This document shows, one piece after another, positions 16,401-22,400 of a stretch of 64,000 nucleotides of DNA (positions are counted from its first letter, which is position 1; each line of letters opens with the position of its first letter). The stretch comes from Ricordea florida (Eukaryota; Cnidaria; Anthozoa; Corallimorpharia; Ricordeidae). The notes beneath the pieces are model-generated. The model did no database searches. It saw only the letters and a list, made by a program, of their open reading frames with translations, and was not told the DNA's origin. Position numbers and translations under genes: made by a program. The stretch covers positions 6,951,427 to 7,015,426 of the forward strand of contig OX453277.1 of the NCBI GenBank assembly GCA_949710005.1, written 5' to 3'.

Positions 16401-19400
16401 AAATGGCAATTATGATAATCAAAGATTAAAAAAGTCGTGAACGCTTAGCGGGCCTATGATCATAATAATAATAATAATAATAGTAATAATAATAGTAATA
16501 GTAATAAATATTTCTATGGCGCAGAACTCCAATAAATTGCCCTGGCGCCTTACAACAGAGAGATGAATTACAAACAAAATAATTTTTTCAACCTTCATTA
16601 AAAGATCAGTCTTCAACACAATTTTAAAAATGTCAACAGATGAACTTCTACGTATTAAGGCAAGGAGTTCCACAATCTAGGGGCGCACACTGCAAAAGAT
16701 CGATCCCCAATAATTCGCGTCTTTGAAGATGGTTCTACAAGATCATTATTACAAACAGATCCCAAAGAATAAGAACTCCCACGATAAGCTAAAAGATCAG
16801 ACAAATAAGACGTTGCCATACCATTAAGAGAAACTAAAAGACAAATTTTAAAATCAATGCGATGCCTACCAATAGAAAACCACTGTAGTTCAATTAGAGT
16901 TGGAGTAATATGATCAAACTTCATCGTCTTACAAACAAGGCGAGCAGCAGAATTTTGAACAGATTGTAATTTAGCAATGGTAATAAAAAAGAGAGCTACA
17001 ATAATCGAGTTTAGAGGTAACAAAAGCATGAACTACCGTTTGAGGAGCTTCACGGGTCAAATGCTTTTTAATCCTTGAGAAATTCCTGACATGATAGCCG
17101 ACTTGCTCTCTACGTAATGTGTGATTTAAAAGGCATAGTATGAAAAACAAAAATTAATTATTTTACTTTTTGCCAAAATGAAAAGAAATAATTACAGCAT
17201 AAAATTAATTACCTGAAATAGGCAAAAATCTACCCAGAATAGGAATAAACTAAACGAGCTGAGTAGTTACAAAAAAAATAAATAAATTACTTTGACTAGG
17301 TTGTACATGACTGTCAGCATTAATTAAAACAACACCAAGATTGGAAGCAGCTTTAACTAAAACAACGTCGACATCCCCAACACGTAAACACAATAAAGAT
17401 GGGCATAAACAATAGCTGGAATGAATAAGCAATAATTAGCCATTTTCTAAACGAGTCGGAATCTGGGTTAGACTTTCAACCGCAATGGCTCTTGGGATTG
17501 TTTGGAGGGACAGTATCAAGGTAAACAAGTATGGTGTAGTATAACCACTTTGTTCCAGCTGGCTGCAATGATAGTTTCAGAAATGGGGCTAACCTTCACT
17601 TTCACAGAATTCCTAACATTAATTCTATGATGTTCGAAAGAAGTACGTACTGTAGTTTTTATCAGTAGGAAGCGAACGCTTAAATTAAATTCTAACAGTA
17701 TGCCGGGATTTGCTCAGCTGATTTCGATGGAGGAGCAAACTTTGCAGAACTCATTTGCCTTCAATTTTTACAAAACAATGGTCGCACGTAGAGTATTGAA
17801 GATGACTAGTTTCGAAGAAATGCAAAGTAGTCAATCGAACAAAACATGTTTAAGTTTCAATTCATTGAAAACCATCCTCTAGTAAATTGGTGTATCCCAT
17901 GATTCTGTGAGAACATTTAATGCCTTAGGTCGTTCTCTCAAATCGCTGGAGCTCAATTCTAGAATATTCTTTAATTCTTGTAATTTTTGTAGGGTGTCTC
18001 TTTTTAAGATTAATAAATGCTGAACTGATATTTATATCAACTCGGGCTCCCTATGCAGTAGATCCTGAGTTTTCTTTAAAACATAATCCCTTTACATTTT
18101 GTCCTATTAAATGCAGGCAGCAATGCAGGCGACACGTTTGTTTATATGGAAATATTATGGTGCCTATTCCTTTTCGCGTGAAAATTACTCAAGCGACTTG
18201 GATCATGCACAGTCATTTTGCCGCTGTGTCAGTGCAGGCGCAGTAGGCCCATGCATGCGCATTAGTACCTCACTGTCGATTTGTGACAACGTAAAAACGA
18301 AGCCCGACTTCAATTCGGTCGTTCCTCCTACCCCGGGAATCTCGAGTTATAAATCATGTTTTCATTATTATTTTTCTTTTCAAGGTGTTTTTCCTACATT
18401 GGTAAGACTGGAGGTGGCGCAAATCCTCTGAACATAGGACCAAGTTGTGATTACAAAAAAGAAGCACTGCATTTTTTAGTGCACCTTCTGGGAATGAATG
18501 ATGAACATCTCCGTCCAGACAGGGACAAATTCATCAAAGTATTCACCTTTGCGTTGAAGTCTCGTAAGAGCAAATCTTTATTATTTCTTTAATTATCCAA
18601 CGATTGCAAATCGAGATAAGCATCACTTGGCGCTGTATTTTTCCTTTTCGATTAATTTTGGGTCAGTCACGGTTTTCGCTTTAACAGTGAACTTGTGTAA
18701 GATCTGAGCTGGAAATTTTTAGCGTTACTAGGCTTAATTGGTTTACTATTTACACGGGAAAACTAGCCAGTGTACGATTTTAGTGGATGGTAAACAAAAT
18801 TCAGCATTGGGGTGTTAAGTTAGGGATGGTTGTTTACCATTTACAAAACGACCCATTCCTGTTTACAGGCTGAATTTAAAACTGACATCAAAAGGTATTA
18901 TAGACGACTTTAAAGGAAATGGAACTTGAAATTCTGTTTAAAACAATCCGAAAGAATAAAACTGAGCTACCTTTTGAGGCGTTTCGTTGCTCCGAGAAAA
19001 TTTCCACCAAAACGTTCAGGAACTCGTATTCCATTTACATTGCAACCGGAATTTCCGGAAACGTTTTGTAAATGGTAAACCACTTAGAATTCTTAAAATT
19101 CCCATTGAGCTAAAAACTGCATGTAATACTTGCATTTCTCAAAAAGAAAAAAAAGAAGCAACTTGATCAAGTTTGCTTTCACCCCCCAACAGATAGTAGT
19201 ATATCCCACAAAAATTTTGGTTGACAGTTGCATAACACTGGGGGGATAGAAGTTTGTCCTTCATCAGAGCAACTGTTAGAGCAGCTTACATAATCAACTC
19301 ATTCAATGAATCCGTTTTTTGTGTGTGAGTTTCAATTTCGAAACGACGCGACTTAAACGTCTCCTTATTTGCTGATTTTTGTTTTGGTAGATGATGCGGT

Positions 19401-22400
19401 CGCCGCACAGAAGAAAAAGTACGGTAACTTGGTAGGCGAACCATACGACTACAGATCTGTGATGCACCACGCTAATAACTACTTGACGGAGGACAAAACT
19501 AAACCAATCATAATGAAGTTAATGCCAGGAGGACCTGTGATTGGACAACGAAATATGCTTTCTGACCTAGATGCGAGAAAAATCAACAAGTTCTATGGCT
19601 GCAAAGTCCGCCCTAGTAAGCTCGATTTATATGGCTCCTGTCTCTCGAAAGCTCTTCCAATTTTTTTTTTCTTTCGAAAGCCCTTCCAATCCATTTTTCG
19701 GACCCGGGTTACAGTAATGAAAGGTGGGATCCCTCAACCTTGCTCCCCTAAACGTTTCAGCAGAAAATTTCAGTTTGTTAGTTAAAAGTAAAATTGAAGA
19801 TTTTTCTTGTTAGAGGTATTGAGCACACTTGAACCAGCCTATAAAGGGTTTTTCCGAAGTAGCCTCTCCAGTACCATTAAAACTATGTTTTTTTGTCTGT
19901 TTTTCAGAGCCGAAACCTCCACCGAAGGAAACGAATGTCGAGCTCGTGTCAGGTATTGTATTTTGAGAACTTCAATAGGTTAACCATAAATTAATGGAAG
20001 ATATTAAACGGAGGCGCGATGATATGGATTTTATTATCGAGTGGTGTAAACAATATTTTACGAACTACGAACAAGAGCGGTGAGTGAGTAAAATACTGTT
20101 TCACTTCGAGACAATAAAACCAGTCTTGCTGCTATTGTTAGCTTGCAACACAAACATAATTTAGTTAACTAGGGTATCTTAAAGATAGTGATGCTGCGGC
20201 ACATTCTGTTGATACTGACATAGTTTAGGCAGTGTTCCATCTACCCGCGTGTCCCAAGACTTGTTAAAGCACCTTCCTTTAATTCTCAAAATCGTCACAA
20301 ATTTTGGCGTTACGAAAAGTGGTTTAAGATCCCTCTGCCACTCCCCACCAAAAGAAATTCAAATTCGACAAGTATGAAGGAAAATTAAAACCACATTAGG
20401 TCTAGGTTTATTTAGTTTTATCTTCAGTCATTGACTTTATACTAACCTTTATGCCCAAATCATGGACAAAATGCTTCGTCTAGAACGCACAAAATTCCTT
20501 TCTGTTCATTATTACGGTTAACTGTTATGGTGTAGTGAAGTCATTGAGGGTTACATCATTGTCTGTAGAAAAAAAATACGATTATGTAACTGTCCTGGTG
20601 TGTACCAACTTCATGCATGGTGACGCATCGATGGCGAGGTGTGACTATGTTTGGATATGAAACGATACATATCAACCTCCCCTTTACCAGATTGGGACAA
20701 TCGAAATATGTGAAAATTGTAGGAGCAAAAAGCTGATTTATGTTTGGACATAAAACGATACACATAGATCTCCCATTTACCAAATCCCAAAAATCGAAAG
20801 ATGTGGAAATTGTATGAGCAAACAGCTGACTTATAAATTCTGAACTGGTACGCATTAAATGTCTCCAGAATGTTGACAGATGGTGCGTGTCGAGGATGCG
20901 TCCATCGCGATGTGTGGAAATGCTAAAGCTTTAGCTTAAATTCATGTTTGGACAAATGATCGCAGCAGAGAAGAAATTAGCGTGTTAACGGTTCAGTTTG
21001 TTTAAATTATTCCACAAGCTTTAGTACCGACAATTTCACTTCATTTAAGAATTCAACCAAGGAGGCGAGACTCCTACGAAATGACACACTAAGTTTTAAA
21101 TTAAGATGTCACAATTAATCGTCCAGATTTACAAACTTTCACTGAAATTCACGCGAAAAAGGAGGCCGGTGCGACGGTATGACATCCTCATGCTTTTCTG
21201 GGGCAATGCATTCTGGTAAAAAGTGCCGCTAAGAGCTCTGGTAAAAACTGTGGTTAAATGCAAGGCATTCTGGTAAAAAGTGTGGTTAAATGCAGTGCAT
21301 TCTGGTAAAAAGTGATGAATTCGAGAATTCGTCCAATCTTGTATATCTCTCTTAAATCTTGATTATGTTGCTGCTCGCTCGCTGCGCTCGCTCCGCAGCA
21401 GTTAGTTAAGCAGCTTAAGTTCTACCACTCGACTTATTGACCTGTGTAATGTGAGCGTGCATTTAGTTGAGAGACCACGATCGTTTACCATTTGCAAGGA
21501 AAATCCGGTTAGAATGGAACTCTTGTAATGATACAGAGTTTTCCTGGTATGGGGTTTTGCCAGGCCCTAGTCTCTCGCGGATGGAAGAAAACAATAACAA
21601 ATCAAAATGGCGGTGTCGAAAGGCGGGAAAAGGGGCCGAGGTGAACTGGGTCGAGTGGGATTTTACAAATGTACTACTGGAATTTCCAGTCATTTCGGTT
21701 GGAACGGGAAAAGAGGAATACGTCTGAGGATTTCCATCTTTTCCGAAAACTTTCCGGTGGAATGAGATGTACAATTTTAATATCCAACCGGAATTTTCGG
21801 TCCTTATTGACAAATGGTAAACACTCCAACCTTAGCTTCGGAGATTTTCTGCGACGCTGAAAACGAAACCGTCGACGTCGTGAAATCTACTTCATTTTTG
21901 GAACAAGCAAGCCAGGAAACGAAAGTAAGAAGACTTCAATTTCTACAATAAAGTTATCTATTAGTTTAGCGTCCGTCTATGTTAGAGGCGTGTGATTTGA
22001 AATTAGCTTCTACGCTTGCCGTGAACACCTGTACATAGAAGTGTTATGTCCATGCTCTATTTTCCCTCTTAGTTCAAACCGCTTCACTATAACGTCAACC
22101 TCGACTCGAACGTCTTTTTACAAGAATAATCTATTTAAGTTAAAGAGATCGACTAAATTTAAAGCGAACTAGACGCTCTCGGGAGCGTTCACTCGGGCTA
22201 CACTTGATAATACGGCTTCGAACAAACGTGAATGTCAGTTTACGCCTAAGTTTTGTATATATTGTATATTAAATAGATTTAGGCAAGCCTAAAAACGGAG
22301 CTCCTCACACAGACCCTCACACATTGAAAATGCTGTCACTAAAGTTATTAAATACGCCTGGTGTACGCAACTACTTAAAGAAGATTCGATAGCTGAAATA

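Follow-up and report, generated by a model that had tools for sequence, protein, structure and literature searches.

An astacin family homologue with a broken active site heads a predicted membrane protein and belongs to a group of sister genes with broken sites

Introduction

Astacins are recognised by the motif HEXXHXXGXXH-EXXRXDRD and by the Met-turn SIMHY, and the animal members are held latent by an FXGD aspartate switch that binds the zinc, as set out in the accessible portion of a 2023 review (PMC9848320). Here we describe a gene encoding an astacin domain in which the catalytic features are broken, located in a stretch of 64,000 nucleotides (contig C6, positions 6951427-7015426, of a 537.8-Mb genome), which as a whole is referred to as the window. 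Based on the residues lost and retained, on sister genes in the same genome and on estimates of selection, the gene looks like a member of a selected pseudo-astacin subfamily rather than an assembly error or a decaying gene, and its product is likely a type I membrane protein with an N-terminal astacin domain maintained as a pseudoenzyme.

Among solved structures, the domain is nearest to meprin beta (PDB 7aq1, 7auw, 4gwn and 4gwm; E about 2e-28), followed by tolloid-like 1 and BMP1 (E about 1e-25). Meprin beta likewise has an astacin domain followed by MAM, EGF and a membrane region near the C-terminus, but it is an active protease with a MATH/TRAF domain (PMC4545420, excerpt). In the window's gene, by contrast, the active site is broken and a fibronectin type II, eight EGF and two Ig domains follow; no MATH domain was matched in the protein at E 0.01, leaving the meprin set of astacin, MAM, MATH and membrane region incomplete. 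The combination of astacin and MAM also occurs in non-vertebrates, as in Hydra HMP2 and the Limulus astacin-MAM protein (excerpts of PMC4545420 and PMC9848320), whereas the gene described here additionally encodes a membrane helix and has lost its catalytic site. According to the excerpt of the 2023 review, the MAM/EGF astacins found in other phyla apparently all lack membrane attachment; a membrane-bound example from outside the chordates would contradict this, provided that the genome is that of a non-chordate animal (PMC9848320). The BMP1/tolloid astacins share the fold, but are active enzymes with CUB/EGF tails (PMC9848320, excerpt).

Pseudopeptidases are known among metzincins such as the ADAMs, and the catalytically dead ADAMs resemble the present protein in being membrane-bound metzincin folds without catalysis that are thought to bind partners (in part after PMC11266112, excerpt). 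They belong to another family, M12B, and carry disintegrin and cysteine-rich domains. In the accessible part of that review, astacin is named once, in a list of metzincins (PMC11266112). No description of a dead astacin subfamily was found in the literature searched, in which subscription journals are thinly covered; the excerpts of PMC4826915, PMC5753285 and PMC3566077 present none, and the literature on astacins with MAM or fibronectin II in Nematostella or corals was represented by parts of PMC9848320, PMC4545420 and PMC12549020.

The broken astacin domain and its gene

The domain carries replacements at three functional positions. In the zinc and catalytic motif (residues 155-173, exon 4), the catalytic Glu is replaced by Phe and the third zinc His by Asp, and the Met-turn (residues 208-212, exon 5) reads SVMHH for SxMHY, with the Met retained and the Tyr replaced by His. 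These changes, proposed in an initial annotation of the window, were confirmed in the exons at 18385-18563 and 19391-19615, and its residue numbering and the positions of both motifs, the cysteines, RPDRD and IGQR likewise agree with our model. Retained are H155, H159, E166 (the family Glu), R169-P-D171-R172-D173, the Met-turn Met, IGQR and Cys 104, 127, 147 and 256, which occupy astacin family positions and, judged by these positions, would form both disulfides. Exon 4 ends at 18563 with the donor gtaaga, and the exon 4/5 junction reads S-H-D-A. Measured against the description of PF01400 and M12A, the family Glu and XXRXDRD after the third His position are present, while HExxHxxGxxHE and the S-x-M-H-Y Met-turn are not. 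Since HExxHxxGxxHE is broken, the domain is, as far as its residues tell, an astacin family homologue and not an M12A peptidase.

The homology itself is unambiguous. On the spliced protein, PF01400 scores 142.9 bits against a cut-off of 22.5 and aligns over positions 1-189 of 189, so the alignment proposed in the initial annotation covers the full profile; taken singly, the exon-4 and exon-5 frames score 49.8 and 42.4 bits. The pro region has no FXGD aspartate switch between residues 19 and 64, as would be expected with no enzyme to silence; F/Y-x-G-D occurs in 9 of the 12 homologues examined.

A single complete gene, modelled by hand from the genomic sequence alone, occupies the + strand of the window at 13354-50933 (24 exons, 1259 residues). 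All introns of the model are GT-AG with consistent phases, bearing out the earlier statement that the splice sites are intact. From the N- to the C-terminus, the product comprises a signal peptide, a furin-type site, the astacin domain, MAM, fibronectin type II, eight EGF and two Ig domains, one membrane helix and a Tyr-containing tail. The exons, in window positions, are:

13354..13480, +, exon 1: start codon, signal peptide (by eye), start of pro region
14261..14386, +, exon 2: pro region with furin-type RRSKR (60-64) and no FXGD motif, start of astacin fold
15166..15289, +, exon 3: astacin fold, C104
18385..18563, +, exon 4: broken zinc/catalytic motif (155-173), C127, C147
19391..19615, +, exon 5: Met-turn SVMHH (208-212), IGQR, C256
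19908..19952, +, exon 6: proline-rich linker
25438..25587, +, exon 7: MAM part 1 (PF00629 62.9 bits, residues 278-437)
26501..26769, +, exon 8: MAM part 2
27502..27589, +, exon 9: MAM part 3
28223..28396, +, exon 10: fibronectin type II (PF00040 47.6 bits)
28889..29002, +, exon 11: EGF 1
30650..30760, +, exon 12: EGF 2
32047..32166, +, exon 13: EGF 3, calcium-binding type
32530..32640, +, exon 14: EGF 4
34615..34728, +, exon 15: EGF 5
37941..38051, +, exon 16: EGF 6
39990..40109, +, exon 17: EGF 7, calcium-binding type
42897..43007, +, exon 18: EGF 8
44517..44876, +, exon 19: Ig domain 1
45325..45678, +, exon 20: Ig domain 2 (I-set)
47130..47174, +, exon 21: juxtamembrane linker
48097..48214, +, exon 22: transmembrane helix (19-residue Kyte-Doolittle mean 2.76), then SKKKRKPK
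48806..48930, +, exon 23: cytoplasmic tail part 1 (YDTV, NIYEA)
50575..50933, +, exon 24: cytoplasmic tail part 2, stop codon

The astacin, MAM and fn2 matches, the EGF series and the two Ig domains all score above the Pfam cut-offs. RRSKR at the end of the pro region is a furin-type site; BMP1 also has a basic cleavage site before its mature domain. The signal peptide and the single hydrophobic helix followed by the basic SKKKRKPK are the features of a type I membrane protein, and the tail (exons 23-24) contains ten tyrosines, among them those of YDTV, YHTM and YGQI. A second in-frame acceptor was seen by eye upstream of exon 23 (window 48633 to about 48687); its use would stop the tail after about 18 residues, making a short-tail isoform possible. 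Intron 3, which precedes the broken exon, holds a reverse-transcriptase-like frame at window 15650-16126 (by eye), i.e. a mobile element.

Sister genes and an external relative

A PF01400 scan of the genome returned at least 125 exon-level matches (150 scored of 181 candidates), all counts being lower bounds. We read 58 loci (L001-L058), including, apart from the window's own, all listed matches that span either the complete zinc motif or its second part, and obtained the motif in 55. In 33 of these HE..H..G..H lies whole within one exon, and among the matches listed it is intact in 33 of 33. An intron splits the motif in another 20, where the visible part (second and third His in 13, the third only in 5, the first part only in 2) shows no broken residue. 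Of 13 further first-part exons among the matches listed, three were read (L104, L106 and L109) and have HE intact. The two remaining loci are broken and are referred to as sisters A and B; a third, sister D, was missed by the scan and recovered by a protein search with the window's domain, and more pseudo-astacin members may therefore exist in the genome.

C6:8767229-8767432, sister A: broken zinc site NALASILGMQAEHTRSDRD, from the PF01400 scan
C8:22798447-22798653, sister B: broken zinc site HAVAAIIGMDLEHKRMDRD, from the PF01400 scan
C6:8706987 (exon 4) and 8704367 (exon 5), sister D: NAMVNTLGMLPEHTRMDRD with SASHW, from the protein search

Broken zinc sites are thus present in at least three sister genes (NALASILGMQAEH, HAVAAIIGMDLEH and NAMVNTLGMLPEH). 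None of the three zinc His is retained in A and D, and one is retained in B. The initial annotation had treated the loss as that of a single gene; it is real in that gene, but is a trait of the whole subfamily, being found in 4 of 4 members whose exon could be read. Splice sites and reading frames of exons 4 and 5 are intact in all four genes. In A and B, astacin, MAM, fibronectin II and EGF exons follow in the order of the window's gene with GT-AG boundaries, in a search that imposed the intron phases of that gene, and the best-scoring exon-2 candidates of both contain the basic site TKR, corresponding to RRSKR. D is followed on its own strand by one MAM and one fibronectin II exon. As for active astacins of matching architecture, inspection by eye of the match lists gave a single candidate, C7:29249063: leaving aside the four pseudo-astacin genes, it is the one fibronectin II match of 96 with an astacin match in the same orientation no more than about 40 kb upstream.

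Two further variants were noted among the loci read. L033 (C4:1862196-1862378) with L098 (C4:1861440-1861634) has an intact HEILHMLGFLHE together with TDHD for PDRD and a SILHH Met-turn, and is possibly a weakened enzyme outside the pseudo-astacin group. L020, L024 and L025 read HT for HE after the third His, i.e. they are without the family-specific Glu.

Outside this genome, a protein search with the astacin domain alone found 13 proteins, of which only P0001 (ENA, 116 residues) is close. It represents an exon-5 reading frame from another genome, is identical to the window's gene at 50 of 62 exon-5 positions as against 41, 38 and 34 of 62 for A, B and D, and its similarity stops at the splice donor (by eye). 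Its Met-turn reads SVMHN for SxMHY, with the Met kept, the Tyr lost and Asn at the position of H212. Because P0001 is nearer to the window's exon 5 than to those of A, B and D, the split between the sisters is probably older than the divergence of P0001. The full-length protein search gave no match over region 60-262 at E 0.001 (174 candidates), and a scan of viral contigs gave no homologue.

These relatives bear on three alternative explanations. The first is an assembly error or an alternative, intact exon 4, either of which would have overturned the initial annotation. Neither tblastn with the domain nor the genome-wide PF01400 scan revealed a second, intact exon 4 in the window; both recognise there only the two exons carrying the zinc site and the Met-turn. 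With three sister loci bearing broken sites of their own and P0001 likewise lacking the Met-turn Tyr, this explanation is scarcely credible. The second is a protease that is still active through a rearranged catalytic site, for which one could invoke the two zinc His, the Asp in the third position and the Met-turn Met. However, Phe stands in place of the general base Glu, the Tyr ligand is missing, the sisters are eroded further, and the pro region is without the FXGD switch that holds active animal astacins latent (PMC9848320, excerpt); we regard continued proteolysis as very improbable.

The third alternative is a metal-binding but non-hydrolytic head, in which a zinc site of the HxxxHxxGxxD type together with H212 would hold an ion for ligand binding or for metal-dependent adhesion. 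The dismantled active site of the initial annotation needs qualifying for the window's copy, whose zinc site is altered but not erased: H155, H159, D165 and H212 remain and, going by the alignments, are all potential ligands. Other metzincins, such as snapalysin, have HExxHxxGxxD sites, and both the window's gene and P0001 retain the Met-turn Met. On the other hand, no zinc His remains in A and D and only one in B, so a metal is not the common purpose of the group, and P0001 has Asn where H212 would be. A metal-dependent head is unlikely, although the window's copy may still hold a metal.

Selective loss of catalytic residues under purifying selection

In a tree of 35 rows, which is unrooted and has some long branches flagged elsewhere, the four broken domains lie on one side of a branch with support 100/99. 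The 31 reference rows consist of 22 from this genome and 9 of the 13 proteins found with the domain. The genomic rows are the 22 intact loci, out of 33, to which a nearby exon 5 could be assigned (the pair L018-L102 being uncertain); the other 11 are L001, L002, L012, L020, L022, L024, L025, L026, L030, L034 and L035. Among these 11, L034 and L035 have a stretch before the motif that is unlike the others, and three loci have Thr for the family Glu.

Nineteen columns are invariant in the reference rows. At least one of the four genes departs from the reference in 4 of 4 catalytic or zinc columns among them, as against 2 of the 15 others (Fisher p 0.0039). With the family Glu column dropped, as the Thr in three left-out loci means that it is not truly invariant, p is 0.0049. 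The reference rows were picked by a motif scorer, and the invariance of the catalytic columns is thus partly by choice, the unselected check being the count of 33 of 33 intact motifs. All four genes depart from the reference at the catalytic Glu (F, A, A, A), the third His (D, A, L, P), one Thr and the Met-turn Tyr (H, W, W, W), a column with Tyr in 30 of the 31 reference rows. The family Glu is present in 42 of 45 intact rows, and the Glu, R and DRD are kept in all four broken genes. The two non-catalytic columns that changed are the Thr and a Tyr that is Phe in two genes.

Selection was assessed as the ratio of nonsynonymous to synonymous rates (omega). Pairwise synonymous distance was saturated in 10 of 15 comparisons by counting methods, and the estimates therefore rest on a codon likelihood model. 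In the four-gene design, exons 4 and 5 together (119 codons) have an omega of 0.143, and a value of 1 is rejected (twice the log-likelihood difference 118.6, p 1e-27); exons 3-5 of three genes (167 codons) give 0.16 (p 3e-20), and the MAM exons in the three-gene design 0.13. Exon 4 alone, in four genes, gives 0.257, with omega 1 rejected at p 8e-8. On the terminal branch of the window's gene, omega is 0.16 in the four-gene design, with omega 1 rejected at p 0.002. The domain is under purifying selection overall. The initial annotation had proposed a membrane pseudoprotease kept by selection, and the helix in exon 22, the domain-wide omega far below 1 and the loss shared with the sister genes all speak in its favour; the ratio near 1 that it named as grounds for rejection is absent for the domain as a whole, but it can be dismissed for the window's own branch by only one of two tests. 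Loss of catalytic residues combined with purifying selection is what marks a pseudoprotease, and both are seen here, the branch-specific part depending on the design.

Several observations weigh against a selected pseudoenzyme. In the three-gene design, the window's branch has an omega of 0.45, which does not differ significantly from 1 (p 0.35). The saturation noted above leaves the omega figures rough, and the extreme value for exon 5 alone, 0.011, itself points to saturation. The non-catalytic Thr column is altered in all four genes (I, I, I, K). A search with exon 4 alone found no exon-4 orthologue from another species, including that of P0001. No Ig, membrane or tail exons turned up in the stretches searched downstream of A and B (2500 bases of the A stretch being N), and membrane anchoring can therefore be assigned only to the window's gene. 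Finally, at a fifth locus with MAM and fibronectin II exons (C6:8527287-8561344, minus strand), whose fibronectin II exon is by eye very like that of D, no astacin exon lies within 7.6 kb upstream; it may be a family member without a protease-like head.

A further rival is neutral decay, in which the astacin exons would be passengers in a protein selected for its MAM, EGF and Ig domains, with nothing maintaining the active site. The catalytic residues differ among all four genes, and identity between genes is lower in exon 4 (38-48%) than in exon 5, MAM and fibronectin II (54-71%), exon 4 also having the higher omega of the two exons tested. Exon 3 is conserved still less (by subtraction, the window's gene and A agree at about 8 of 40 codons), and the three-gene branch test fits decay as well. 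Yet the omega of exon 4 remains far below 1, all four genes preserve 13 of the 15 invariant columns outside the catalytic set, the splice sites and frames of exons 4 and 5 have survived in each of them, and P0001 retains its 50 exon-5 residues while the intron side fails to align (by eye). We consider decay quite improbable.

Proposed function

A selected pseudo-astacin would probably have taken on a new, non-cutting job. Binding is the function we infer, and it may consist in the capture of a peptide or substrate. More tentatively, and with somewhat less than even confidence, the four genes may belong to an ancient family of animal receptors whose ligand-binding head, carried on a MAM-fibronectin II-EGF stalk, was once a protease. 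Each member would have lost catalytic residues in its own way but retained the elements for maturation and fold, and at least one would be tied to the membrane with a tail capable of signalling.

In astacins, the family Glu binds the mature N-terminus. As basic cleavage sites and this Glu are retained, the domain is presumably processed and folded like a mature astacin: the furin-type site RRSKR64 would still release the pro region, the new N-terminus would dock on E166, kept in all four genes, and a folded mature head would form without a working enzyme. The former substrate cleft or an adjoining face could then bind a protein ligand, such as a matrix component, a pro-peptide or a partner of active astacins. 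The head would be presented on the MAM-fibronectin II-EGF-Ig stalk, perhaps dimerised through MAM, and the single membrane helix with its Tyr-containing tail could serve as an anchor or in signalling. A structural or ligand-binding metal ion may also persist in the window's copy, coordinated by H155, H159, D165 and H212. Sister genes that are each broken differently under a common constraint offer a direct test of which parts of an astacin serve binding and which serve cutting.

Other features of the window and genome

A different reading frame on the minus strand, at window 9329-9382, belongs by eye to a small EGF-type protein; its start, MKPFIILCFLTLVVCAGA, is alike to the signal peptide of the gene described here at 10 of 18 residues (tblastn E 0.42). 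Downstream of the gene lies a small cluster of four tRNA-Trp genes (window 52076-52150, 54348-54422, 55386-55460 and 56075-56149), and window 56529-56810 is a telomere-like array of about 47 GTTAGG copies inside the contig. Elsewhere in the genome, C11:26.32-26.49 Mb holds a dense cluster of dozens of fibronectin type II exons.

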